NCBI RefSeq assembly: GCF_003544935.1
Contig: NZ_CP032098.1
Span: forward strand, 2,356,001 to 2,420,000
DNA from: Malaciobacter molluscorum LMG 25693
GTDB lineage: Bacteria; Campylobacterota; Campylobacteria; Campylobacterales; Arcobacteraceae
Length of the DNA: 64,000 nucleotides
Direction: 5' to 3'
The notes beneath the pieces were generated by a model, which had not been told where the DNA came from, did not search any database, and worked only from the letters and a program-made list of their open reading frames with translations. This document shows positions 30,176-49,587 of this stretch, one piece after another (position 1 is the stretch's first letter; the number at the start of each line of letters is the position of its first letter). A program made the translations under genes and the position numbers.

Positions 30176-30181
30176 TATAAT
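30176..30181 (+). promoter_or_regulatory. -10 box of the ankyrin-repeat operon
   Basis: Perfect TATAAT, 28 bases before the first ankyrin gene's ATG at 30209. An AGAAAGG ribosome site follows at 30193-30199. No clear -35, as is common in Campylobacterota. The same region must also hold the promoter of the divergent transporter gene. Confidence 0.55.
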
Positions 30182-30208: not shown

Positions 30209-33200
30209 ATGCAATTAAAAAATATATTCCCTTTAAATAATGATGAAAATTTAAATACATTAATAAAAAAAGGGAAAATTAATAAGATTATAAAATATTT
30301 AGATAAAAATAGTATTAATATAAATGACAATATTGAAGAATATTTATCTTTAGCAATAAAAAGTGACAATTCAAATTTTCTAGAGTATCTAAGTAATCTA
30401 AATATTAAAATTCCTAAAAATATTGATAATTTAAATATTTTATCTTTTACTTTAAATAAAACTACAAATCTTGATATTATTTCATATATTATAAAAAATA
30501 ATTTATTTTCAAAAGAGTATGAATATGGACTTAGTCCATTTGAAACAGCACTTGAAATAAATGCAGATTTCAAAATATTCAAACTTTTAATAGACAATAA
30601 TATTTTACAAAATAGTATATCAAAACTACCAATTATTCATCAATTAGTTGAAAATGATTATATAACATACCAATTAAAAATTGATACAATAACTTATTTA
30701 TTAAGAAATAAACAAATAGATTTAAATGAAGAGATTATAGGACAAAAATCTCTTTTAGAAAAAGCCTATGATATACAAAATAAATATTTAATTGAACTAT
30801 TTTTATCTTATAAAGCATCTGTTAAACCAATATACGAAGTTTATGGAAATATCTTTCTAAATGAAAAAGAGATAAGCAAAATGTCATCGGTTTTATTAGA
30901 AAACCAACCATTTAAAGATTATAAATATTTTTCGAGGTATTTAACATTTAAAGATTTCAAATCACTTCTTTTTAAATTTGATGATATAAAAAATATGGAA
31001 ATTTTGATTTTAATTTGCAAAAATGTATTAATATTAAATAATGAAAAAATTGAACTTTTCAAAATTGCACTAGAAAAAGGTTGTGATATAAATGAAATAA
31101 GCGATGATATATACCAATATACAGCTTTACAATATTATTGTACAAATTATAAAATTAGAAATGATTTTTCTTTTATTGATTTTTTATTTGATAATGGAGC
31201 TGTTTTTAATTTTAATAATAACTCACCTCTTGCAGATTGTATATATTTAAATCAAATTAATCTAATAAAATATTTAGTTAAAGAAAAAAATATAGATATT
31301 AATGAACTCAATCGTTCAGGTATAGGAGCAATAAATGGTCTTATAGGTTTTGATTTTTTAGAAAATACAAACGATAAAATCAAAATGTTAGAACTATTAG
31401 TTAAACTAGGACTGGATATTAATCAAAAAGTTATATCAAGTAAAAAGCAAGAATATCCTAAAAGTTCCATAATTGATATTCTTATAAAAGATAAAAGAAA
31501 CCATGAATTTTTAGAATATATATTAAAAACATATAAAGATTTAAAAATTGAAGATGAAATTAGTTATATGTTTGCTTTTGAACCTAACGACGTATTATGT
31601 AAACTTTTAATAGAAAAAAATCCATACTATACAAGCGATTTTTATTATTCTAAAAAAATTGATAATAAAGAGTATAAATTTAGTGCTCAAGCTCTAGATA
31701 TGGCAATAGATTGGAAAAGGCATGAACTTGCACAATATCTAATAGAAAAATATCCAAATATGAAAACATACACAGAACATAGCTCATTAATAGATACAGC
31801 ATTTACCAACTCTTTTAGTATTGAATTTATTAAAAAATTAATAGATAAAGATCCAAATTTAGATAGACTCTACTATAAAACTAAAATATATCCATCAACA
31901 AAGGAAGAAGTTACAACAAAAGAGACTTCATTAATCTCGATACTTTCTCATTTGAAGAATATCTCTTTTTCAGTTGATAAAATTACTGAAATTGTAGATT
32001 ATCTATTAGAAAATAATGCAAATGCAAATATTCCTCTTATTAAAGAAGGCTTAGGACATAGTGCAATAAAAGAAGAGCATGCACTGTTATATGCAGCAAA
32101 AGAAAATATGGAAAAAAAACTACTTGATACTTTAATAGATAAAGGAAATATTGATTTAAATGAGAAAAGAAGTGGACGAAATGAATCCTTAGTTAATTCT
32201 TATTTATCAATTCGTACCTTAAGTGATGATTCAATATTAGATCATCTAAAATATTTTAGTAAAAAATGTAAAATAGATTTAGAACAACAAGATATTGAAG
32301 GAAATACTTTATTTCTAAAAGCTTCTTCAAATTGTCTGCCAAAATGCCTTCAATATTTAATAGAACTTGGAAGCAATATAGATATTATAGGGGGATTTGA
32401 TAATTCACCCGCAATTCATAAAGCAATTTCAAATTACCCACATTTAGATAAAACAAAAAGAGCCCAAACAGTAAAAGTATTAATTGATGCAGGTGTCGAT
32501 TTAGAACAATTTGACTCTGAACAATTAACTGCTTTAATGAGTGCTTCTAAATATGGTTGTTTTGAATCTTTAGTTACTCTTTTAGAAAATGGTGCTAACC
32601 CTAATAGTAAAAATGAAACTAATGCTAATGCTGCTAATGTATTAATTCCTAGTGATGTTTATACTAAAAATTACAGTTACGATGATAAAGAAAATTTTGA
32701 AGAGAACAAATCAAAAATCTTAGCAGTTCTAAAAGATTATGGTTGTGATTTAGATAATGTTCCTCTTGAAGGTTCTACTATTTTAAACAATGCCATTGGT
32801 TACAATTTGAAAACTATATTTAATACTCTTTTACAACTTGACATTGATATTAATAAACCTGATAGAAATGGTACTACACCTATTATGGTTGCTATTGAAT
32901 TTGGTGATATTTATTTTGTAAACTCTTTACTTCAAAACCCTAATATTAATCTTCTTGTGGAAGACAATGCTGGTGAAAATCTTATTTATAAAGCTATTAA
33001 AAGAGAAAATGATTCTAAAGTTATTGATTTAATTGATTATCTTGTTGAAAATGGTGTTCCTATTAAAAATCTTGAAAATGGTATGAATCCTCTTATTTTT
33101 GCTTCATATTTCTCTCATTTCAATCTTTTTGAATATCTTCTTAATTTTGTTGATGATATAAATACAAAAGATAGTTTTGGTTTATCTGCTATTTCTTGGA

Positions 33201-33352
33201 CTTTACAATCTAATCTTAACATACCTTTGGAGCAAAGACTTGAAGCTATTAAAACTTTAGTCGCTTTAAATGCAGATAAACAAGAAGTAATAGAAATTGC
33301 AAAAAGAATTGAGGATAATTATGAAATAATGCAATTATTAGAATCTATATAA
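30209..33352 (+). CDS. Large ankyrin-repeat protein 1
   Basis: 1047-residue repeat protein made almost entirely of degenerate ankyrin repeats. Typical units read as NGTTPIMVAIEFGDIYFVNSLL, or as LTALMSASKYGCFESLVTLLENGANPN read in parts. No signal peptide, membrane helix, catalytic or metal motif is visible, so it is probably cytoplasmic and binds other proteins. The N-terminal 130 residues are closely related to those of the next gene. Residues about 700-1023 are almost identical to that protein and encoded by a near-identical DNA block (32310-33278). Behind that block the protein ends early with a short helical cap (KQEVIEIAKRIEDNYEIMQ), while gene 2 continues about 100 residues. First gene of a four-gene run. 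Function unknown. Confidence 0.85.
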   Translation: MQLKNIFPLNNDENLNTLIKKGKINKIIKYLDKNSININDNIEEYLSLAIKSDNSNFLEYLSNLNIKIPKNIDNLNILSFTLNKTTNLDIISYIIKNNLFSKEYEYGLSPFETALEINADFKIFKLLIDNNILQNSISKLPIIHQLVENDYITYQLKIDTITYLLRNKQIDLNEEIIGQKSLLEKAYDIQNKYLIELFLSYKASVKPIYEVYGNIFLNEKEISKMSSVLLENQPFKDYKYFSRYLTFKDFKSLLFKFDDIKNMEILILICKNVLILNNEKIELFKIALEKGCDINEISDDIYQYTALQYYCTNYKIRNDFSFIDFLFDNGAVFNFNNNSPLADCIYLNQINLIKYLVKEKNIDINELNRSGIGAINGLIGFDFLENTNDKIKMLELLVKLGLDINQKVISSKKQEYPKSSIIDILIKDKRNHEFLEYILKTYKDLKIEDEISYMFAFEPNDVLCKLLIEKNPYYTSDFYYSKKIDNKEYKFSAQALDMAIDWKRHELAQYLIEKYPNMKTYTEHSSLIDTAFTNSFSIEFIKKLIDKDPNLDRLYYKTKIYPSTKEEVTTKETSLISILSHLKNISFSVDKITEIVDYLLENNANANIPLIKEGLGHSAIKEEHALLYAAKENMEKKLLDTLIDKGNIDLNEKRSGRNESLVNSYLSIRTLSDDSILDHLKYFSKKCKIDLEQQDIEGNTLFLKASSNCLPKCLQYLIELGSNIDIIGGFDNSPAIHKAISNYPHLDKTKRAQTVKVLIDAGVDLEQFDSEQLTALMSASKYGCFESLVTLLENGANPNSKNETNANAANVLIPSDVYTKNYSYDDKENFEENKSKILAVLKDYGCDLDNVPLEGSTILNNAIGYNLKTIFNTLLQLDIDINKPDRNGTTPIMVAIEFGDIYFVNSLLQNPNINLLVEDNAGENLIYKAIKRENDSKVIDLIDYLVENGVPIKNLENGMNPLIFASYFSHFNLFEYLLNFVDDINTKDSFGLSAISWTLQSNLNIPLEQRLEAIKTLVALNADKQEVIEIAKRIEDNYEIMQLLESI
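32310..33278 (+). repeat. Near-identical mosaic block, copy A (in ankyrin gene 1)
   Basis: Three tracts match ankyrin gene 2: 32310-32373 with 35465-35528 (64 of 64), 32447-32641 with 35602-35796 (195 of 195), and 32681-33278 with 35842-36439 (598 bases with a single A/G difference seen). Two divergent patches interrupt them, 32374-32446 and 32642-32680. Identity includes synonymous sites, whereas flanking DNA of the two genes differs throughout. Codons inside the third tract favour ATT, CTT, ACT and GGT, unlike the ATA/TTA-rich flanks. Confidence 0.9.
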
Positions 33353-33378
33353 AATCTATAAATAAAAAAAGGATATAC

Positions 33379-36300
33379 GTGATATTAAAAAATTTACTTA
33401 AAAAAAATAAAGAAAATAATATTGACTCTTTAATAAAAGAAGGAAAAATTAATAAAATAATAAAATATTTAGAAAAAAACAATATTAATATTGAAGAAAA
33501 TTTAGAAGAATATTTAACACTTGCTATAAAATCTAAAAATACAGATTTTCTAAAGTATTTACAAACTCTAAATTTAAAATTTCCAGAAACAATAGATAAT
33601 TTAAATATTTTATCTTTTGCTTTGAGTATAACTTCAAATCTTGATATTATCTCACTTATTATAAAAAGTGAGTTATTCTCAAAAGAGTATAAATATGGAT
33701 TAACACCTTGTGAAATGGCTTTAGAAAAGAATTATGATTATGAATTATTTAAAGTATTAATTGATAATGATATTTTAGAAAATAGCCCATCAAGACTTCC
33801 TTTTCTTCATCAACTAATTGAAAGTAATGAAATAGAAGATACAACAAGAGGAGCAATTTTTGTCTATTTATTAGAAAAAAAGAAAGATGTAGATTTAAAT
33901 CAAGAAGCATTAAATACAGATCCTTTAATTGTAAAAGCATACAAAAAAGAAGAATATACTCTTTTATCTCTTTTCTTAGTTTTTGGAGCAAGATTAAAAT
34001 TTATTGCAAATGAGTATGAAGAAATTTTTGATCAAAAAGATATGAAAGCACTTTCTAGTGTTTTACTTGAAAAACAACCAAAAGAAGATTATAAATACTT
34101 TGTACCATATTTAAATTATGAAGATTTAGAAACTTTTATTAATTCATTACAAAGTACAAAAGATATGCAAATTCTTTTATATATTGCAAAAAATATTTTG
34201 CTTAATAATGCACAAAAAATTAATATCTTTAAACTTGCATTAGAAAAAGGTTGTGATATAAATGAAACAAGTGATGATATAGAAGAAGAAAATGTAATTC
34301 AATATATTTGTAGAAGTTTTGTTTTTGGAAAGAATTTAGAAGTTGTAAAATTTTTATTTGAGGAAGGTGCAATTTTTAATTTAAATAAAAAACAACCATT
34401 AGTTTTTTGTATAAATGGAAATGAAACGCACTTAATAAAATATCTAGTAGAAGAACAAAATATAAATATTAATGAACTTAATCATGCAGGTGAAGGTGCG
34501 ATAAATGGTTTCATTGATTATACATATTTAGATACAGTAGATAAACAAATAGAAATGTTTGAATTATTAGTTGAGTTAGGATTAGATATTAATCAAAAAG
34601 TAATAGGTAAAAATACAGATGAGTATCCAAAATCTTCAATCATAGATATTTTAATGCCAGATAAAAACAATCATGCTTTATTAAAATATATTTTAAAAAA
34701 TCATACAAACTTAGAAATATCTCAATCTATCAGCTTTATGTTTAAAAACGAGCTTGATGATGAGACTTGCAAAATAATTATTGATAAGAATCCAACTTAT
34801 GAAATTGAATCATATTTTGAAAAAGAATTTAATAAAAATAGTTATAAATACAATGCAGAATTTTTAGATATGGCAATAGATTGGCAAAGATATGAAGTTG
34901 CTCAATATATATTAGACAATTACCCTCAAATAAAAGGCTACAATGAAAATATCTCTTTAATCTTTCTTGCATTTAATAAAGAATTTTCACTTGAATTTAT
35001 AAAAAAATTAATTTTAAAAGATCCAAACCTTAACAGAGAGTATAAAAGTGAAGATAAATTTGGTACAACTATTACACAAACATCACTAATTCAAGTATTA
35101 AGATATACAATAAAAAATGAACAAATAGATTATGTATATAAAATAATTGAGTTTCTAATTGAAAATGGTGCTGATGCAAGTATTCCTTTAAGAAAACATA
35201 ATATTGCAGATTATTATTTAGATGAAGAAGGTGCACTAATTTGTGGAGTTCTTTTTGATGAAATTCCTTTTAAACTTTTTGATCTTTTAATCGAAAAAGG
35301 GAATATAAATCCAAATAAACCTGTTTCTAATCTAAATCAAACACAAATTCAAAGTTTATTATATTCAAGAGATATACAAGATGAACATAAATTTGAAGCT
35401 TTAAAATATTTTCATAATAAATGCGGTTTAGATTTACAACATCTAGATAGAAAGGGTTATAATCTATTTCTAAAAGCTTCTTCAAATTGTCTGCCAAAAT
35501 GCCTTCAATATTTAATAGAACTTGGAAGTGATATTCATATAGTTGGAGGGGAAGATAATTCTCCTGCTATTCATAAAGCAATCTCTAACTATTACTTTGT
35601 TGATAAAACAAAAAGAGCCCAAACAGTAAAAGTATTAATTGATGCAGGTGTCGATTTAGAACAATTTGACTCTGAACAATTAACTGCTTTAATGAGTGCT
35701 TCTAAATATGGTTGTTTTGAATCTTTAGTTACTCTTTTAGAAAATGGTGCTAACCCTAATAGTAAAAATGAAACTAATGCTAATGCTGCTAATGTACTTA
35801 TTACAGAAGATTATCAAAGAACTGAGCATTTTTATAGCTATGATGATAAAGAAAATTTTGAAGAGAACAAATCAAAAATCTTAGCAGTTCTAAAAGATTA
35901 TGGTTGTGATTTAGATAATGTTCCTCTTGAAGGTTCTACTATTTTAAACAATGCCATTGGTTACAATTTGAAAACTATATTTAATACTCTTTTACAACTT
36001 GACATTGATATTAATAAACCTGATAAAAATGGTACTACACCTATTATGGTTGCTATTGAATTTGGTGATATTTATTTTGTAAACTCTTTACTTCAAAACC
36101 CTAATATTAATCTTCTTGTGGAAGACAATGCTGGTGAAAATCTTATTTATAAAGCTATTAAAAGAGAAAATGATTCTAAAGTTATTGATTTAATTGATTA
36201 TCTTGTTGAAAATGGTGTTCCTATTAAAAATCTTGAAAATGGTATGAATCCTCTTATTTTTGCTTCATATTTCTCTCATTTCAATCTTTTTGAATATCTT

Positions 36301-36750
36301 CTTAATTTTGTTGATGATATAAATACAAAAGATAGTTTTGGTTTATCTGCTATTTCTTGGACTTTACAATCTAATCTTAACATACCTTTGGAGCAAAGAC
36401 TTGAAGCTATTAAAACTTTAGTCGCTTTAAATGCAGATATTAATGACTTTGATACTCACGGTAGAACTGCATTTCATTATTGTGTTTACACACATAATGA
36501 TTTAGTATTTGATTATTTAATAAAAGAGAAAAAACAAATAGATATAAATAAAAAAGATGCAGAAGGTAATTCACCAATAACTTTATTAATATTAAATTAT
36601 TTTAATAACATTTATAAAGATAATATTGACTTTTTCGAATATTTCTTTACAAAATTAGTTTCAAATGGTGCAGATATACAAGATGCAAAACTTTTTATTG
36701 AAAAATATGAAGATGACGATTATTTAAAATCATTTGTGGAGTCTTTTTAA
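33379..36750 (+). CDS. Large ankyrin-repeat protein 2
   Basis: 1123-residue ankyrin-repeat protein. The start is GTG at 33379 (reading M-ILKNLLKKN), 8 bases after AAAGGA; the gap from gene 1 is 26 bases. Tandem degenerate ankyrin units occupy most of the chain, with no signal peptide or enzyme motif seen. The N-terminus (LIKEGKINKIIKYLEKNNINIEE in parts) parallels gene 1. About 325 residues from 697 on are shared almost exactly with gene 1, then two further repeats (DTHGRTAFHYCVY and DAEGNSPITLL) precede a C-terminal helical cap ending ESF. The stop overlaps the next start by one base (TAATG). Function unknown; a protein-interaction scaffold is inferred. Confidence 0.85.
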   Translation: MILKNLLKKNKENNIDSLIKEGKINKIIKYLEKNNINIEENLEEYLTLAIKSKNTDFLKYLQTLNLKFPETIDNLNILSFALSITSNLDIISLIIKSELFSKEYKYGLTPCEMALEKNYDYELFKVLIDNDILENSPSRLPFLHQLIESNEIEDTTRGAIFVYLLEKKKDVDLNQEALNTDPLIVKAYKKEEYTLLSLFLVFGARLKFIANEYEEIFDQKDMKALSSVLLEKQPKEDYKYFVPYLNYEDLETFINSLQSTKDMQILLYIAKNILLNNAQKINIFKLALEKGCDINETSDDIEEENVIQYICRSFVFGKNLEVVKFLFEEGAIFNLNKKQPLVFCINGNETHLIKYLVEEQNININELNHAGEGAINGFIDYTYLDTVDKQIEMFELLVELGLDINQKVIGKNTDEYPKSSIIDILMPDKNNHALLKYILKNHTNLEISQSISFMFKNELDDETCKIIIDKNPTYEIESYFEKEFNKNSYKYNAEFLDMAIDWQRYEVAQYILDNYPQIKGYNENISLIFLAFNKEFSLEFIKKLILKDPNLNREYKSEDKFGTTITQTSLIQVLRYTIKNEQIDYVYKIIEFLIENGADASIPLRKHNIADYYLDEEGALICGVLFDEIPFKLFDLLIEKGNINPNKPVSNLNQTQIQSLLYSRDIQDEHKFEALKYFHNKCGLDLQHLDRKGYNLFLKASSNCLPKCLQYLIELGSDIHIVGGEDNSPAIHKAISNYYFVDKTKRAQTVKVLIDAGVDLEQFDSEQLTALMSASKYGCFESLVTLLENGANPNSKNETNANAANVLITEDYQRTEHFYSYDDKENFEENKSKILAVLKDYGCDLDNVPLEGSTILNNAIGYNLKTIFNTLLQLDIDINKPDKNGTTPIMVAIEFGDIYFVNSLLQNPNINLLVEDNAGENLIYKAIKRENDSKVIDLIDYLVENGVPIKNLENGMNPLIFASYFSHFNLFEYLLNFVDDINTKDSFGLSAISWTLQSNLNIPLEQRLEAIKTLVALNADINDFDTHGRTAFHYCVYTHNDLVFDYLIKEKKQIDINKKDAEGNSPITLLILNYFNNIYKDNIDFFEYFFTKLVSNGADIQDAKLFIEKYEDDDYLKSFVESF
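35465..36439 (+). repeat. Near-identical mosaic block, copy B (in ankyrin gene 2)
   Basis: Partner of the block at 32310-33278. It is 6 bases longer because the second divergent patch (35797-35841) has two more codons than its counterpart in gene 1. The borders of the identical tracts are abrupt in both directions. Confidence 0.9.
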
Positions 36751-39700
36751 TGTCTTTTCTAGATAAAATTCTAAATAATAAAAAAGATGATAAAAATTCA
36801 AATGAGTTCTTTTTTGCTAAGAAAAAAAAGAACTCAGAAATAGAAGAATTGATAAAAGAAGAGAATATTGAAGAGTTAAAAAAACTTATTACAACACAAA
36901 ATGTAAATGAAAAAGAATTAAATTCTCATTATGCTCTTTATTATGCAGTTATTTATAATAAAAAACAAATTGTTGATTATCTTTTTTCTTTAGGAGCAAA
37001 GGTTGATACTGCAAAACAAAATATCACTGATAATGTAACAGAACTTTTAATTGATATAAACAATTATGAAATATTAGACTCTTTTTTAAATCAAAAAATG
37101 ATACTTCCTAGACTTATTTCGAATGTTCCTTTATTACATTATGCCCTAGAAAAAAAAGTAAGTTTTAAATTTATAAAATTACTTTTAGAGAATAAAGTAC
37201 AAATAGAAGAGTTTAAAGAAAAAACAGCTCTTCAAAAAGCGTTGGAAGTAAATAGTGATTTTAATACAATTCAATATTTAATTAAAATAGATACACAAAA
37301 TATTAGTATTTTTAATAATGATAAAAATATTTTAGAAGATATTATATTATCACCTTTAGATAATTTAAAAAAAATAGAAATAATAAAAGAGTTAAAAAAA
37401 CAAACAAATATAACTTTAAATCAAACTACAAAAGATAATAAAGAGACAATTTTAGAACTAGCTATAAGACTCAAACAAAATATGGTAGCAAAAGAATTAA
37501 TCCTTTTAGGTGCTGATTTTTCTACAATAAAAAATGAATTAAATTCTCTTTTTGAAAAAGGTGATTTAGAAGATATAACAAACTATATAAAATCAGAAAA
37601 CTTAGACTTTATTAACTATTGTTCCATTTTAACATATGAAGAGATTTGTGAATATTTTGATAGTTGTGATAACTTAGAAAACTCTACAGTAATATTAAAT
37701 ATCATAGAAAATCCAAAATTAAATCTTATTCAAAAAAAGCAATTAATATCTTTAGCAGTAAGCAAAAAAGCAAATGTAAATGAGATCGATGAAAGAGTTA
37801 ATACTACTGCTTTATTAAATTACTCAAAATTAATAAAACAAACTACTTATATAGATTTAATTCAATTACTTCTTGAGTTAGGTGCAAAAATAGAAATATG
37901 TGGACAAAGTGCATTTTTATATGCTATAAAAAGTTATAATTTAGAAATATTAAACTTATTTATAAAATACAATGCTAATGTCAATTTTGTAACTAAAGAT
38001 AACCAAAGTATTGCTAATTATATAGTTGAAGATGAGTTTATCAAAAAAGATGAAAATAAAATAGTTGAATTATTGAAGATATCTATTAAAAATGGTTTAG
38101 ATTTAAATACAAAATCAACTTTCTTTATAGACGAAGAAGAAGAAATACTTGATATTTTCAGTATTTTTATATGCGAAAGAAAAGAAAATACTATTGAATT
38201 CTTACTAAATAAAGATCTTCCTTTAAATGATGATAGCAATTATATATATTATGCAATTAGATACTTAAATACAGACTCATTGCAAAAAAGAATTATTGAT
38301 TTAAATCCAGAATATGAATACAAAAACTTTTATATAATAGGCAAACAAACAGATAGTGCTCAAGCTTTAGGAATGGCAATTGAGTATAAAAAAGAAAACC
38401 TAGTAAAACTAATTTTAGAATCATACCCTAATATGAAAAGTTATTGTACTATTAAAGAAACATTATTAGATTTAATAGAAAATAAATTTGAAATATCTAC
38501 AATAAAAGAACTCATAAAAAAAGATCCAGATATAAATAGAAAATATACAATACTAACATCACAACCTTATACTTCTACAATACTTTTAATGTGCATAAAA
38601 AGAATCAATGATATAAAATATAACAAAAAAGAAAAATATATTCAAATTTTAGAGTTTTTATTACAAAATAAAGCAGATCCAAATATACAAGAAGTATATG
38701 AAAATGAAAAAATAGACTCTTCTACTATTTTTGACTTATTAGTAAATGAAAATAGTTTAAATAAACAGATACTAGATATGATTATAAAATATGGTGCAGA
38801 TTTAAATATTAGAACTGTAGTTTATAAAAATAGTATTATACATAATATTATAAATAATTCATTATACATATCAGATGATATAGTTATATCATATTTAGAA
38901 TATTTTGATAAAAAAATAGGAATTAATCTTGAAGATAAAAATAAAGAAGGCCTTACTTTACTTTTATGTGCTTGCTGGGTATGTAAATCAAAAGTAGTAA
39001 GATGGCTTCTTGAAAAAGGTGCTAATATTCATGTTAAAGGTGGAAGTTTAAATGTAAATACTTTATATACTACACTTTGTACAAATAGAGATGTAAAAGC
39101 AATTGAAAGATTAAACACTATAAAAGTTCTAATTGAATATGGCGCAGATATAGAAGAATTATCAAATAATTTAACTGCTTTGATGGCATCTTGCTTTTAT
39201 GGTACATATATTTGTACAGAGTATTTATTACAAATAGGTGCAAAAGTAAATAATAAAAATAAAGATAATAATACAGCAGTAAATTATTGTGTACAAGGAA
39301 ATGTGGGATATGATACACCTAGTAGTGTTGAAAGTATAAAAGGTAGAACTTTATTATTACTTCATAAATATGAAGCAGATTTAGATAATATCCCCGATAT
39401 AAATAAAAGCGCACTTGTTACAACAATCTTAGATAATAAAAAAGAATTATTTGATCATTTATTACAACTAAAAGTTGATATTAATAAAAAAGATAAAAAT
39501 TCTATAACTGCTTTAATGTATGCTGTAACTGAAGGCTCAATCTATTTTATTAATAGACTTTTAGATGAAGAAAGTTTAAATATAAATGAAGTTAATAAAT
39601 ATAATGCAAATGCTCTTTTTTTTACTCTTTATAGAAATAATACAAATGAAGCTATTACAATATTTGAAAAATTAATAAAAAATGATATTAAAGAAACATT

Positions 39701-40361
39701 ACTAGAAGATCAAAGAACTCTGCTTCACAAAGCTTGTGAAATAGGAAATATTGAAATTATTCCTTCAATATTAGATTTTACAAAACATGATATTAATAAT
39801 GTTGATGAATTTGGAACAACTGCACTTTTAAGTTCAATAATATCTAATCAAAATTATGAATTTAGAACAATTAAAATAGTAAAACTTTTAGTGCAAAAAG
39901 GTGCAAATATAAATATTATTGATAAAGAGGATAATCATGCACTTACAAGTGCTATAAAACTTAAACAAATAAATTTAGTTAAAACACTACTTGAATTGCA
40001 AGCAGATATTAATGTAGTTTCAAGAGAAGGCAAAACTGCAATTCATTTCTTATTAGATACAAATTACACAATAAATGAATTAGAAATTTATCTAAAACTA
40101 TTTGACGATTATGGAATCGATATAAATTATAATAAAAATATAGATTGTGCACTATTATATTATATAAAAAGTATGGATTTCTCATCTAATCGTTCAATGG
40201 GATTTTTACAAGAAGATATAAAAATCAAAAAAGAAGAAGATAATATAGTAAATCTTCTTATTAAATATAAAGCCAACATCAAAGAAGCTATAAATCAAGC
40301 AATAGAAAATAATGAATCAAAAGACATTATTGACTATTTAAAAGAAAAAGGAAATATGTGA
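36750..40361 (+). CDS. Large ankyrin-repeat protein 3
   Basis: 1203-residue ankyrin-repeat protein, third of the set. It begins with a short lysine-rich segment (DKILNNKKDDKNSNEFFF), then repeats such as LNSHYALYYAVIYNKKQIVDYLFSLGA in parts, and many later units (NSITALMYAVTEGSIYFINRLL). It is homologous to genes 1 and 2 along its length (for example LTALMASCFYG corresponds to LTALMSASKYG) but diverged, and does not share the recent identical DNA block. It ends with a similar helical cap (KEAINQAIENNESKDIIDYL). No signal peptide. Start overlaps the gene 2 stop (1 base) and its stop overlaps the next start (4 bases), so expression is coupled. Function unknown. Confidence 0.85.
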   Translation: MSFLDKILNNKKDDKNSNEFFFAKKKKNSEIEELIKEENIEELKKLITTQNVNEKELNSHYALYYAVIYNKKQIVDYLFSLGAKVDTAKQNITDNVTELLIDINNYEILDSFLNQKMILPRLISNVPLLHYALEKKVSFKFIKLLLENKVQIEEFKEKTALQKALEVNSDFNTIQYLIKIDTQNISIFNNDKNILEDIILSPLDNLKKIEIIKELKKQTNITLNQTTKDNKETILELAIRLKQNMVAKELILLGADFSTIKNELNSLFEKGDLEDITNYIKSENLDFINYCSILTYEEICEYFDSCDNLENSTVILNIIENPKLNLIQKKQLISLAVSKKANVNEIDERVNTTALLNYSKLIKQTTYIDLIQLLLELGAKIEICGQSAFLYAIKSYNLEILNLFIKYNANVNFVTKDNQSIANYIVEDEFIKKDENKIVELLKISIKNGLDLNTKSTFFIDEEEEILDIFSIFICERKENTIEFLLNKDLPLNDDSNYIYYAIRYLNTDSLQKRIIDLNPEYEYKNFYIIGKQTDSAQALGMAIEYKKENLVKLILESYPNMKSYCTIKETLLDLIENKFEISTIKELIKKDPDINRKYTILTSQPYTSTILLMCIKRINDIKYNKKEKYIQILEFLLQNKADPNIQEVYENEKIDSSTIFDLLVNENSLNKQILDMIIKYGADLNIRTVVYKNSIIHNIINNSLYISDDIVISYLEYFDKKIGINLEDKNKEGLTLLLCACWVCKSKVVRWLLEKGANIHVKGGSLNVNTLYTTLCTNRDVKAIERLNTIKVLIEYGADIEELSNNLTALMASCFYGTYICTEYLLQIGAKVNNKNKDNNTAVNYCVQGNVGYDTPSSVESIKGRTLLLLHKYEADLDNIPDINKSALVTTILDNKKELFDHLLQLKVDINKKDKNSITALMYAVTEGSIYFINRLLDEESLNINEVNKYNANALFFTLYRNNTNEAITIFEKLIKNDIKETLLEDQRTLLHKACEIGNIEIIPSILDFTKHDINNVDEFGTTALLSSIISNQNYEFRTIKIVKLLVQKGANINIIDKEDNHALTSAIKLKQINLVKTLLELQADINVVSREGKTAIHFLLDTNYTINELEIYLKLFDDYGIDINYNKNIDCALLYYIKSMDFSSNRSMGFLQEDIKIKKEEDNIVNLLIKYKANIKEAINQAIENNESKDIIDYLKEKGNM

Positions 40362-42424
40362 AATATCTATATATAATACTTATACTTTTTTTAACAAATA
40401 CAAATTTAATATCAAACGAAAGTAATTCAAAAGAAGATCTTATTAAGAAAGCTAAAAAAGCTAATATCCAAGCAATAATGGATCTTAATAAATATTACTA
40501 TTTTCCAGAAACAAAAGAGGGTTTTGAATACTTTAAAAAATGGTATCCAATAGTATTAAAAGAAGCAAATGCACAAGATTTATATAAATTTGCAATGCTT
40601 TTTAAAAAATATAATGATATGTTTATAAATGGGCATGAAAAATATAGAGAGCTTTTAAAAATGTCTTTAAAAAAAGGTAATAAAAAAGCTAGAATTGAAC
40701 TTATGAAAACCTATTATTTTCAATATAAAAAAAGAATAGATATAAAAAATGATATTTTAAAAGATGGGACAAAAGAAGAAATAGAACAAGCTTACAAAAT
40801 TTTTAATAACCAATATGAAAGTTCAATAGCAGATGAGATTAAAAAAGTTTTAATAAAAAAAGGTTCTGAAGAAAAACAAAACAATTATCTAAAAGATTTA
40901 AAAAAGACATTTTATAAATCAAAAAAACAGACAAATAATCTTATAAAGAAGATTTATGAAACCAATAATCTACAAACTTTATATGAAACAGCTAAATATC
41001 TTCAAACAAAAAGAAGAAGAAATGATGCTATAAAACTTTTTGAAAAAGCTTTAAGCTTAAAACCAACTATTGATATAAAAAAAGATATTCTAAGTGAACT
41101 TGGAATAAGTTATCAAAGAATTGATTTTAATAAATCTTTAGAATATCTACAAGAAGCTACAAAATTGTATAGCAAGTCTGCTGCAAACTATATCTTAACT
41201 CTATATAGAGCTAATAAAAAATATTTTGACAAATATATACAATTAAAAAATACTCTTCTAAAAACATCCGAAGGAAAAAAAATATTAGCAGATTTTGCTT
41301 ATACAACATATTCAAAATATTATGCATATGAATTATATGAGCAGTTAGCAAAACAAGAAGATAAAGATTCTATTATAAAATTGACGACTGAAAGATTTAA
41401 GTTTAGTGAGTATTCATTCTCTCCTGAAGTTTATTTAATATCTAAAAAATGGGAAAAATATATTTTTGAAACAAAAAATAGAGATTTATTACTTTTATTA
41501 AAAGATAAATTATCAAACAAATACTCAAAGGATGCAAAAGAACTATCATCAAAAATCACACAAATACTTTCTTCAAAAGATAATATTTTAGCTTTAAGAA
41601 AAAAATATGAAGATAATTATTATGATGATAAAGCAAAAGAATACCTAAATAAAGCATATGAACTAGGAGATACTTATAGTGCTTTTAAACTTGCAGATTT
41701 ATATATTCAAGAAAGACAACTTCCTAAAGCTATAAAAATCTATGAAGATCTAATAAATAAAAAAGATTTATATGCTTCAGTAGCACTTGCAAATTTATAT
41801 ATTGAAAATTACAAAAATTATGATAAAGCAATAACTTATTTAAAAGCATCAGCAAATAAAGGATACATTCAAGCTATTAAAAAGTTAGGATATATTTATG
41901 CCTTTAGTGACAAACAAAATATACAAAAAGCAAAAACTTATTTAACTAAAGCAATAAACAAAGGAGAAATATATTCGCTATATTATATGGGAACTATATC
42001 TTTGAAAGAAAAAAATCTAAAAGATGCAGTAAGATATTATCAAGAAGCTATTAAATATAAAATAGATGATGCATTTTATCCTTTGGCTTCATTATATTCA
42101 AATAGATTTGGAGAATATTTATATAAATTAGATAATAAAAAAGCTTTTAACTATTTAAAAGAAGCAGAAAAAATATATAAAAATGCAGCATTATGTTATC
42201 AGTTAGCAGATTTTTATCAAAATGCAATAGGTGTAAAAAAAGATATAAAAAAAGCTTTAAATTATTATGAACAAGCATACAGATATGACAAAAAGCCTAA
42301 AGTAGCCTATCTTATTGCAACAATTTATGAAAAAAACAATGATATACCAAAAGCAAAAAACTGGTATTCAAAAGCAAATACAAAAGAAGCACTAAAAAAA
42401 TTAGAAGAATTAAATAAAAAATAA
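40358..42424 (+). CDS. Exported TPR/Sel1-like repeat protein
   Basis: 688-residue protein starting with GTG (GTGA overlap with the upstream stop). Residues 1 to about 19 form a signal peptide (MKYLYIILILFLTNTNLIS) without a lipobox cysteine, so the product is probably periplasmic or surface-associated. The rest is alpha-helical repeats of TPR/Sel1 character, clearest at the C-terminus (KKDIKKALNYYEQAYRYDKK and DIPKAKNWYSKANTKEALKKL). Lysine-rich and without enzyme motifs. It is the last gene of the ankyrin run and the only member predicted to cross the inner membrane. A partner or sensor role is inference only. No good plus-strand terminator was seen behind it. Confidence 0.8.
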   Translation: MKYLYIILILFLTNTNLISNESNSKEDLIKKAKKANIQAIMDLNKYYYFPETKEGFEYFKKWYPIVLKEANAQDLYKFAMLFKKYNDMFINGHEKYRELLKMSLKKGNKKARIELMKTYYFQYKKRIDIKNDILKDGTKEEIEQAYKIFNNQYESSIADEIKKVLIKKGSEEKQNNYLKDLKKTFYKSKKQTNNLIKKIYETNNLQTLYETAKYLQTKRRRNDAIKLFEKALSLKPTIDIKKDILSELGISYQRIDFNKSLEYLQEATKLYSKSAANYILTLYRANKKYFDKYIQLKNTLLKTSEGKKILADFAYTTYSKYYAYELYEQLAKQEDKDSIIKLTTERFKFSEYSFSPEVYLISKKWEKYIFETKNRDLLLLLKDKLSNKYSKDAKELSSKITQILSSKDNILALRKKYEDNYYDDKAKEYLNKAYELGDTYSAFKLADLYIQERQLPKAIKIYEDLINKKDLYASVALANLYIENYKNYDKAITYLKASANKGYIQAIKKLGYIYAFSDKQNIQKAKTYLTKAINKGEIYSLYYMGTISLKEKNLKDAVRYYQEAIKYKIDDAFYPLASLYSNRFGEYLYKLDNKKAFNYLKEAEKIYKNAALCYQLADFYQNAIGVKKDIKKALNYYEQAYRYDKKPKVAYLIATIYEKNNDIPKAKNWYSKANTKEALKKLEELNKK

Positions 42425-42430
42425 GAACTT

Positions 42431-42461
42431 AAAAAAGGGAATCAAAAAAGCATTGATTCCC
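42431..42461 (-). terminator. Terminator of the thyA-folA operon
   Basis: 9-bp stem GGGAATCAA / TTGATTCCC with a 7-base loop (42437-42461). On the minus strand it is followed by TTTTTT (complement of 42431-42436), 17 bases behind the folA stop. The T-tract lies on the minus-strand side only, so it does not look like a terminator for the ankyrin run. Confidence 0.7.
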
Positions 42462-47087: not shown

Positions 47088-48677
47088 ATGGAATTGGTTT
47101 ATTTATGGGTAGAAAAATATAAAAATATAGAAAAGCAAGGTTTTAATTTTTCTCCTAGGTTTAAGTGTGAATATGATGGAAAAACAAATGAATTGACTAT
47201 TGATGAAAACAAAGAGTATGTAAGTATCTTTCCTGAAAATATAAATATCACTGCTGTTGTTGGGGAAAATGGGAGCGGGAAAAGTACGATTTGTGAATGT
47301 TTTTATGATGACCCTGATTTAAAAAATATTAGAGCAATATATTTTAAAAACAATAAATTTTATTCAAATTTTGAATTTAAAATAAAAGAAGAAATAGAAA
47401 TAATAGATTTAGACTCTTTTGATATTTCTAATAATCTTAATTATTATAATTCAAGTAGAGATTCCGTTGATGCAAGTGATGAAGAAATAAAAATTAAATT
47501 TAATTCAATGTTTTTTGAATTATTAAAAGATGATATATCCTTTTTTAATTTTTTAGATAATAATTACTACTTTGATTCATACCTATTTGAGATTGATGAA
47601 AACAAATTTTATGATTTAACTTTTAATACTAAAAAAATAAATCTATCTAATTATACATTTCATAAAAACTATTTATTTAAAGTTATTATTGTTGATATAC
47701 TTTTGGTAATATATGGGAAGGATATTGATAAAAAAGTTCCTAATAATATATTCGAAAGACTAAGCAAGAATGACTTTTTTATTGATGACTTTTTACAAAT
47801 TATTAATTTTTGTAAAAAAGAAAAAAAACTTGTTATTTATAAATATTTAACAATAAAAAATTTAGAAATATTAGAAATTTTTTTTAAAATGGCTAATTAT
47901 TCTTTAAAGTCAGACTACATATATTTAGATAAAAAAATAGATTTTAAAAATGAATTAATAGAATATTTATATTATGAAATGAATATTTTAAACATAAATT
48001 TCTGCAATAGCAAAAAAAATATAGAATTTAATTCTTTAAGTGAGGGAGAAAGAACACAATTAATGTTATTTACAAAAATAACAAATAATTTAAAAAGTAA
48101 TATAGGAGATAACAATAGGTTATATTTTTTAGATGAACCTGATTTATCCTTGCATCCTAATTGGCAAAGAAGATTAATTAATAACATAAATATTGTACAT
48201 AAAAAATTAAAATATACAAATGTAAATATTCATTTTATTATTACTTCTCATTCACCATTCATACTTTCAGACTTACCAAAAGAAAATGTAATATTTTTAG
48301 AAAAAGGGAAACAAGTTCATCCTTTTGAAAAGAATCAACAAACATTTGGAGCAAATATACATACACTACTTTCACATGGTTTCTTTATGCAAAATGGACT
48401 TATGGGTGAATTTGCAAAGAGTAAAATCTCAAAAATATTAAAATTTTTAAATGGGGAAAAGAGATTTATCGACTTAGAAGTTAAAATTTTGCCTCCATTA
48501 AAAATACAAAATAACTTTTTTGAAAAAAATTTAAGACCTATTATAGAATTTATTGGAGAAGATTTTTTAAAAGAAAAACTTTTAAGAATGTATGAAATTA
48601 AATTTCCAAAATCTAATGAAGCAAAAATAAAAGAATTAGAAAATGAAATAAAAAGATTAAAAAATGCTACAAATTAA
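47088..48677 (+). CDS. ptuA: Septu-type ATPase (PtuA-like)
   Basis: 529-residue ABC/SMC-like ATPase of the type paired with HNH nucleases in Septu anti-phage systems. Walker A GENGSGKST is at residues 59-67, the signature LSEGERTQL near 318, Walker B YFLDEPDLSLHP near 345 and the switch histidine in TSHSPF near 386. The region between Walker A and the signature (about 250 residues) is an insertion without known motifs. The C-terminus ends in a short charged helix. The stop overlaps the nuclease start by 14 bases. Role inferred: senses infection and controls the partner nuclease. Confidence 0.82.
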   Translation: MELVYLWVEKYKNIEKQGFNFSPRFKCEYDGKTNELTIDENKEYVSIFPENINITAVVGENGSGKSTICECFYDDPDLKNIRAIYFKNNKFYSNFEFKIKEEIEIIDLDSFDISNNLNYYNSSRDSVDASDEEIKIKFNSMFFELLKDDISFFNFLDNNYYFDSYLFEIDENKFYDLTFNTKKINLSNYTFHKNYLFKVIIVDILLVIYGKDIDKKVPNNIFERLSKNDFFIDDFLQIINFCKKEKKLVIYKYLTIKNLEILEIFFKMANYSLKSDYIYLDKKIDFKNELIEYLYYEMNILNINFCNSKKNIEFNSLSEGERTQLMLFTKITNNLKSNIGDNNRLYFLDEPDLSLHPNWQRRLINNINIVHKKLKYTNVNIHFIITSHSPFILSDLPKENVIFLEKGKQVHPFEKNQQTFGANIHTLLSHGFFMQNGLMGEFAKSKISKILKFLNGEKRFIDLEVKILPPLKIQNNFFEKNLRPIIEFIGEDFLKEKLLRMYEIKFPKSNEAKIKELENEIKRLKNATN

Positions 48678-49587
48678 ATTTAATAAAACACTTTTTGATA
48701 TTCATATCAAAAAAATATCTAAATCAATAAAAAGCTCTATTGAAAAACAATTAATGAAAAATCTAGAGCAAAAAGAAATAGATTGCTTAGAATATATAAA
48801 AGACAATTTAATTTTTATTTTAGAAGCTAACAACTCCAAAATGAAAGAATATATAAAATATTTTAAAAACAATTTTCCTAATAGCATTGGTAAAATAAAT
48901 ACAAAAGAAAAGAATTGGAAAAGAATATATAAAATACTAAGAAAAGATATTTTTGAAAAAGAGTATAACAATTGGACAAAAAGAGCAGAGTATGGTGCAT
49001 ATAAGTTTGTAAAAGAATTAGATTTAAAATCTTGTCCTTATTGTAATAGAAATTATACTTTTATAATAGATGAAAAAAATGGAAAGTTAAGACCAGAGAT
49101 AGACCACTTTTATCCAAAATCAATTTATCCTTTTTTAGCAATGAGTTTTTATAATCTTATACCAAGTTGTTCTATTTGTAACCATACAAAAAAAGATAAA
49201 GTAAATTTAAAGTTACTTAATCCTTATGAAATAAAAGAAAATGATTTTAAACTAACTTATACACCAAATGATATTAATTTCTTTAATATAGAAAAAGAAA
49301 AATATGATTTTGATAGTTTTGAAATAAATTTTGTATCAACAAATAAAAATATAGAAATATTTAAACTAAAAGAATTATACAAACAACATAAAGATATAGT
49401 TTTAGAACTTTTAATAAAAAAAGCTTATTATCCAAAAAATTATATAGAAGAACTAAAAGGTTTTGGCTTTAGTGAAGATGATATTTATAGATATTTACTT
49501 GGTAATTATCAAAAAAATGAAGACTTACACAAACGCCCTCTTTCAAAACTTATAAAAGATATAAGTGAAGAGTTGGACTTGATTTAA
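48664..49587 (+). CDS. ptuB: Septu-type HNH endonuclease (PtuB-like)
   Basis: 307-residue nuclease. The zinc-supported HNH fold is visible: C124-PY-C127, then EIDHFYPKS with D147 and H148, N164 in SFYNLIPS, and C169-SI-C172 followed by N173 and H174. This is the TIGR02646-type HNH arrangement seen in PtuB and in retron Ec78 effectors. It starts inside the ATPase gene (14-base overlap). No reverse transcriptase or retron RNA is nearby, so this looks like a stand-alone Septu pair that cleaves nucleic acid upon phage attack (inference from the family). Confidence 0.83.
   Translation: MLQIKFNKTLFDIHIKKISKSIKSSIEKQLMKNLEQKEIDCLEYIKDNLIFILEANNSKMKEYIKYFKNNFPNSIGKINTKEKNWKRIYKILRKDIFEKEYNNWTKRAEYGAYKFVKELDLKSCPYCNRNYTFIIDEKNGKLRPEIDHFYPKSIYPFLAMSFYNLIPSCSICNHTKKDKVNLKLLNPYEIKENDFKLTYTPNDINFFNIEKEKYDFDSFEINFVSTNKNIEIFKLKELYKQHKDIVLELLIKKAYYPKNYIEELKGFGFSEDDIYRYLLGNYQKNEDLHKRPLSKLIKDISEELDLI

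Follow-up and report, generated by a model that had tools for sequence, protein, structure and literature searches.

Does the run of four genes at positions 30,209 to 42,424 of the stretch studied here form a single system, and what might such a system do? The stretch (hereafter, the window) covers 64 kb of the 2.8-Mb genome of Malaciobacter molluscorum LMG 25693 (NZ_CP032098.1, positions 2,356,001-2,420,000), and three of the four genes (ank1, ank2, and ank3) encode giant ankyrin repeat proteins. An earlier note based on the window sequence had proposed a four-gene, cytoplasm-plus-periplasm system, possibly for conflict. Our comparisons indicated that conservation is limited to the ankyrin genes, namely one or two AnkA genes (here, ank1 and ank2) followed by an AnkB gene (here, ank3), and that this block has been transferred as one unit among marine bacteria, even between genera. 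The coordinates, lengths, and gaps of the four open reading frames (ORFs) were as first reported; all four are on the + strand, with spacings of +26, -1, and -4 bases:

30209..33352, + strand: ank1, AnkA-type giant all-ankyrin protein, 1047 amino acids (aa), without a signal peptide
33379..36750, + strand: ank2, second AnkA-type protein, 1123 aa, GTG start, with additional C-terminal repeats relative to ank1
36750..40361, + strand: ank3, AnkB-type giant all-ankyrin protein, 1203 aa; its start overlaps the ank2 stop (TAATG)
40358..42424, + strand: gene 4, predicted exported TPR/Sel1 solenoid protein, 688 aa

As the earlier note had it, this set lies between a transporter gene, which Pfam placed in the SBF family, and folA/thyA, which we identified by sequence.

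AnkA-AnkB units were found at differing chromosomal sites in 6/6 Malaciobacter species searched. The M. molluscorum triple (locus A; AnkA, AnkA, AnkB) had counterparts at the same place in the sister species G005 (72 to 74% protein identity; 73% for ank1 and 72% for ank2) and G002 (61 to 65%; 61% for ank1 and 65% for ank2). M. molluscorum also carried locus B, an AnkA-AnkB pair between a transporter gene and a MutS2 gene, and G002 carried a three-gene locus B on the opposite side of MutS2. In the case of G001, G003, and G004, a single AnkA-AnkB pair was located at another site, and the locus A site held isochorismatase and other genes instead. The AnkA stop and AnkB start overlapped as TAATG in all eight Malaciobacter copies, and the AnkB N-terminus, MSFLDK, was invariant in 9/9 sequences. 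Relative to locus-B AnkB, the ank3 protein contained an insertion of about 140 residues.

The same pair, in the same order, was present in Fulvivirga sediminis and a second Fulvivirga species, which belong to the Bacteroidota; there, three more genes came after it, two of which carried ankyrin repeats. Fulvivirga AnkA was 46 to 50% identical to most Malaciobacter AnkA proteins of the locus-B type but only 31 to 32% identical to those of locus A, Fulvivirga AnkB was 37 to 41% identical to Malaciobacter AnkB, and both Fulvivirga proteins grouped beside the locus-B type in a tree. Carriers made up 7/104 Arcobacteraceae (the six Malaciobacter species and 1 of 98 others), 1/395 of a Bacteroidota sample, and 2/15 Fulvivirga, and a phylum sample of 347 genomes yielded no match outside Malaciobacter. 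The distribution beyond the Campylobacterota and Bacteroidota comes from a single scan that used two short peptide patterns, and further carriers are possible. A viral origin was considered and rejected; short peptide patterns detected no relative in viral contigs, and phages and plasmids gave generic ankyrin matches only.

Gene 4 did not share this distribution. At the ank3-folA junction of G005, G002, and HF-Din13, a metagenome-assembled genome (MAG; G1091) placed in another Arcobacteraceae genus, ank3 abutted folA and gene 4 was absent. Gene 4 was also absent from the second (locus-B) Malaciobacter copies and from the Fulvivirga copies. Because of these absences, the four-gene unit was rejected, and the proposed cytoplasm-plus-periplasm system was not supported. 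The earlier note had looked to co-occurrence in other genomes and to sister strains to judge its cassette; the ankyrin part held up, since AnkA and AnkB are adjacent in other genomes and are kept throughout Malaciobacter, and the part concerning gene 4 did not, since gene 4 does not accompany them and is missing from G005 and G002. Because one insertion is simpler than at least two losses, gene 4 was, by parsimony, added to the operon in this lineage only.

The profile searches and structure predictions that the earlier note had suggested bore out its reading of the proteins as repeat proteins. Pfam ankyrin models matched ank1-3 with E values of 1e-42 to 1e-52 (Ank_2, 143 to 175 bits versus a cut-off of 27), and gene 4 matched Sel1 (48 bits) and TPR_2 (52 bits) above the cut-off. 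The AlphaFold2 model of Fulvivirga AnkA (mean pLDDT 87) was a full-length, uninterrupted solenoid of about 30 repeats, made up of about 60 paired helices with a few short hairpins and a low-confidence stretch of 14 residues at the start; the model contained no domain besides the ankyrin solenoid and no enzyme domain. The closest Protein Data Bank folds were the membrane-binding domain solenoids of human ankyrin-1 and ankyrin-B (Z 28). Given 31 to 32% identity to the modeled protein, the AnkA proteins of the window are predicted to share this fold, and homology and Pfam matches suggest the same fold for AnkB. AnkA and AnkB were homologous across about 1,000 residues (27 to 28% identity), which probably makes the pair the product of an ancient duplication. 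For a strongly amphipathic N-terminal helix, considered as a membrane anchor, the hydrophobic moment was large in certain members but unremarkable in the rest.

NCBIfam matches to Dot/Icm Ank effectors reached 40 to 76 bits, below cut-offs of 500 to 1400, the score for MzaA of the MZA anti-phage system was 30 to 32 bits versus a cut-off of 800, and Pfam detected no ZU5, UPA, or death domain in the ankyrin proteins. The PADLOC candidate PDC-M72A matched at 82 to 166 bits over ankyrin stretches only, a match also to be expected of unrelated ankyrin proteins. The earlier note knew of no described system of this composition, and indeed the ankyrin unit had no match in the family libraries or open-access papers searched; the open-access literature searched gave us neither an account of a giant ankyrin pair like AnkA-AnkB nor a paper containing both "ankyrin repeat" and "Malaciobacter".

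The two AnkA genes of locus A shared a feature that was absent from the earlier note. Specifically, their 1.04-kb 3' tracts were 93.7% identical, and 413 nucleotides (nt) were exactly identical:

32247..33278, + strand: ank1 3' tract homogenized with ank2, 413 nt exact from 32866
35402..36439, + strand: ank2 3' tract homogenized with ank1, from sequence comparison and trees

In three species, ank1 and ank2 of the same genome were 92 to 100% identical over the core 3' tract, and between species the identities were mostly 72 to 90%; for the window, the figures were 99 to 100% versus mostly 78 to 90% between species. In a tree of the N-terminal 640 residues, ank1 and ank2 each grouped with their own counterparts from the other species; in a tree of residues 700 to 1000, the proteins of G005 and G002 grouped by genome. 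Since the N-terminal halves sort by gene position and not by species, a plain recent duplication was rejected, and the comparisons indicated that gene conversion homogenized the 3' parts in each of the three species separately. Across phyla, no part of AnkA was more conserved than the homogenized segment, while the N-terminal half diverged, and this segment matched the best region of the fold search (residues 652 to 1072). In ank1, the ratio of nonsynonymous to synonymous substitution rates (dN/dS) was 0.13 for the C-terminal part versus 0.26 for the N-terminal part. In the sister comparison, orthologous ank1-3 genes had dN/dS values of 0.18 to 0.33 (0.24 for ank1) versus 0.04 to 0.15 for flanking genes. 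Thus, ank1-3 are real, functional genes under purifying selection that are evolving faster than their flanks.

Evidence for movement of the block came from HF-Din13, whose locus A is split across two contig ends. At the homologous site, its AnkB and first AnkA were 99.1% and 96.6% identical to those of G002, whereas its folA and thyA were 88% identical to those of G002 and its SBF transporter was 77 to 80% identical to those of the window and G005. The nucleotide identity between HF-Din13 and G002 fell from 98 to 99% to about 67 to 92% past the ankB stop and from 95 to 99% to about 84% just upstream of ank1. Because the ankyrin genes were near-identical while their flanks were far less so, these identities indicated that the block was exchanged horizontally between genera as a unit, probably by recombination in the flanks. 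Misbinned Malaciobacter DNA is an unlikely explanation, because the contigs carry flanking genes at between-genus identity.

The block is also likely to have its own promoter:

30176..30181, + strand: -10 box TATAAT, putative operon promoter; kept as TATAAT in G005 and as TACAAT in G002

The earlier note was right that TATAAT is present at 30176, but the 6-mer alone is uninformative; in this AT-rich window we counted 162 occurrences versus 197 expected by chance, and the motif by itself was dropped as evidence. It was reinstated through conservation in the sister species. The block ATTATTTTTAGNTATAATCT upstream of ank1 was kept in G005 and, with TACAAT, in G002, and the -10 box of G005 and G002 sat inside a ATTATTTTTAG-TATAATCT block. 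Because the rest of the spacer was divergent, this conservation supports a promoter upstream of ank1.

Although gene 4 fell outside the conserved unit, its full-length family and confident predicted fold suggested that it is a real gene. Its N-terminus, VKYLYIILILFL, was hydrophobic as judged by eye, and its AlphaFold2 model (pLDDT 88) was an all-helical TPR/Sel1 solenoid behind a low-confidence signal region, with Sel1 repeat proteins as the nearest folds. No close ortholog was found; the relatives were full-length, Sel1/TPR lipoproteins of about 800 aa in Arcobacteraceae (31 to 36% identity), and three tandem relatives of 661 to 692 aa (25 to 29% identity) were found in G023. The lipoprotein relatives sat by the nuo region, often with two of them flanking a 508-aa protein, and no ankyrin gene was present there. 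One such cluster (L030:8116-14468; G000:C1:2668115-2674467) consisted of two lipoproteins of about 800 aa around a 508-aa exported protein with no Pfam family above the cut-off. The lipoprotein/508-aa/lipoprotein cluster lay beside nuo genes in three Malaciobacter species, and others had a single lipoprotein gene.

What might the ankyrin unit do? In the explanation that we favor, AnkA and AnkB would be made in fixed proportion and would act jointly as a protein-binding complex in the cytoplasm. A shared interface, either with AnkB or with a common cell component, may reside in the constant C-terminal half of AnkA, and the divergent N-terminal halves would give each copy a separate ligand range. 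The invariant MSFLDK peptide of AnkB could dock the complex on the membrane or on a common partner. Most likely, such a complex would work by capturing or blocking foreign or competing proteins, as in immunity or defense, rather than by catalysis, and gene 4 would encode an exported, accessory binder that was recruited later. We are highly confident in the evolutionary and structural part of this explanation. The explanation as a whole, a mobile AnkA-AnkB block that encodes a protein-binding conflict complex, is tentative and falls a little short of an even chance, and a role in conflict or neutralization, taken by itself, is possible but not probable. Its fullest form is a new kind of mobile, all-binding conflict system built solely of giant ankyrin solenoids, with a translationally coupled AnkA-AnkB complex, diversifying ligand-binding N-terminal halves, and a shared C-terminal interface held uniform by gene conversion, the whole block being passed between genera and phyla; in that form, we regard it as unlikely.

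Several points weigh against this explanation. No toxin, effector, or consistent neighbor was found in the loci read, so that no particular enemy is tied to the block, and known Imm-Ank proteins are small and are encoded next to their toxin. The retention of a copy by every Malaciobacter species fits a housekeeping scaffold as well, and the AlphaFold model is that of the Fulvivirga protein, with a pTM of only 0.55. Horizontal block exchange and gene conversion fit the earlier conflict proposal, but no toxin or secretion gene was adjacent in the loci read, and the type VI secretion system (T6SS) marker VipA was missing from two carriers.

The alternative that survived best was an endogenous scaffold, in which the giant ankyrins organize the cell's own proteins (e.g., at the membrane) and the genes are beneficial ones that happen to move. 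This alternative stays alive because all Malaciobacter carry the block, and it is consistent with the purifying selection on ank1-3, with ankyrin-1 and ankyrin-B scaffolds as the closest folds, and with the short invariant AnkB peptide, which suggests a fixed docking point. However, the block is rare elsewhere, in the other Arcobacteraceae, the phylum sample, and the Bacteroidota alike, and allelic block exchange and varied sites would be unusual for a core scaffold. We favored conflict because the exchange is patchy and block-wise, and we consider the scaffold somewhat unlikely.

An orphan immunity array of the Imm-Ank type, directed against polymorphic toxins or T6SS effectors, is improbable. 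Ankyrin proteins in the Campylobacter jejuni T6SS region are predicted immunity proteins beside Tox-REase-7 effectors (PMC8285248), genes for Tle6 lipases always come together with ones for ankyrin immunity proteins (PMC11470151), VipA was present in 5/6 Malaciobacter species, and tandem duplication and exchange would suit polyimmunity loci. However, no toxin was recognized, as far as we scanned, among the neighbors of locus A, locus B, or the G001, G003, G004, and Fulvivirga loci, and G001 and Fulvivirga (G060) carry the pair without VipA, so that toxin or T6SS linkage is unsupported and the T6SS-immunity version is weak. The block proteins are also three to four times larger than the C. jejuni candidates (241 to 317 aa; PMC8285248).

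Secreted effectors against a eukaryotic host or grazer, such as shellfish or protists, seem a shade less plausible still. Ankyrin proteins are common host-directed effectors, host-associated bacteria are enriched in them (PMC3932732), shellfish are a habitat of Malaciobacter (PMC11597588), and there were weak matches to Dot/Icm Ank effectors. However, those matches rest on generic repeats, the ankyrin proteins have neither a signal peptide nor an enzymatic domain, and T6SS, the sole secretion system tested, is not common to all carriers. Finally, a genuine four-gene system from which the relatives lost gene 4 is very improbable; gene 4 shares strand, presumed promoter, and a 4-bp overlap with ank3, but three relatives lack it at that junction, as do all copies at locus B and in Fulvivirga, and its nearest relatives (31 to 36%) lie away from ankyrins.

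Several further observations concern the ankyrin loci and their surroundings. Locus B of G002 contained a fast-diverging additional AnkA (L014:12605-15817; about 40% identity to the remaining AnkA proteins of locus B), which may represent another ligand variant. A 389-aa ankyrin gene downstream of AnkB in the second Fulvivirga species was broken into two ORFs of 159 and 216 aa (L070:15970-17140), which suggested decay of that gene while the pair is intact. Two more ankyrin proteins of about 630 to 660 aa per genome were encoded at other loci (L020:5138-7075 and L021:6074-7966) and are apparently widespread in Arcobacteraceae. In G001, a 4088-aa RTX/cadherin-like giant adhesin-type gene (L065:1277-13543) lay near the AnkB gene, with duplicated 212- to 213-aa genes in between; no such gene was noted next to the pair in other species.

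In the window itself, an AAA ATPase and HNH-like gene pair at 47088-49587 (+ strand) was Septu-like and matched the PADLOC defense candidate PDC-M62A/B (341 and 231 bits). A related pair adjoined thyA in HF-Din13, and a similar pair was present in G004; thus, the thyA flank appeared to be a variable region. No tRNA gene was found in the 64-kb window, which gave no sign of a tRNA-linked island. One further element was noted downstream of gene 4:

42437..42461, - strand: intrinsic-terminator-like hairpin that would serve the opposing folA/thyA strand; inside the segment absent from sister genomes

Bacterial ankyrin proteins are usually treated as host-directed effectors or small immunity proteins. 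The AnkA-AnkB pair is kept, mobile, present in two phyla, and subject to recurrent gene conversion, and as a small and well-delimited set it lends itself to direct testing. A conflict role would make it a system that relies on binding alone, and a scaffold role would make it a mobile counterpart of ankyrin in bacteria.

Among known systems, gene 4 has the fold of the Sel1-like/TPR proteins HcpC, LpnE, and c5321 but is longer (688 aa), and it does not have the lipobox of its Malaciobacter relatives. The Dot/Icm effectors AnkH, AnkY, and AnkG have ankyrin repeats in common with the block, whose scores are far below the curated cut-offs and which contains no effector domain. Ankyrin neutralizers on record include Imm-Ank (PMC3482391), the Tli ankyrin protein bound to its lipase (PMC11470151), and a Bdellovibrio self-protection protein that is reported to bind and inhibit peptidoglycan endopeptidases (PMC4686830). 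Imm-Ank proteins are likewise ankyrin-only bacterial proteins, sometimes in tandem arrays (PMC3482391, PMC8285248, PMC11470151), but the block proteins are 1047 to 1203 aa, have no adjacent toxin in the loci read, and occur in genomes without the T6SS marker. The Bdellovibrio protein is also a bacterial ankyrin protein (PMC4686830), and its enzyme targets are known, but none such were seen near the block. Thus, Imm-Ank, the C. jejuni ankyrins, Tli, and the Bdellovibrio protein are each tied to a target, unlike the block. In shape, the closest parallel is the eukaryotic ankyrin-1/ankyrin-B membrane-binding domain of 24 repeats, which like AnkA is a long superhelical solenoid. In contrast to eukaryotic ankyrin, AnkA is a stand-alone bacterial protein with about 30 repeats, no ZU5/UPA/death domain match, and 16 to 21% identity, and each AnkA or AnkB protein exceeds the binding domain of human ankyrin in its number of repeats.

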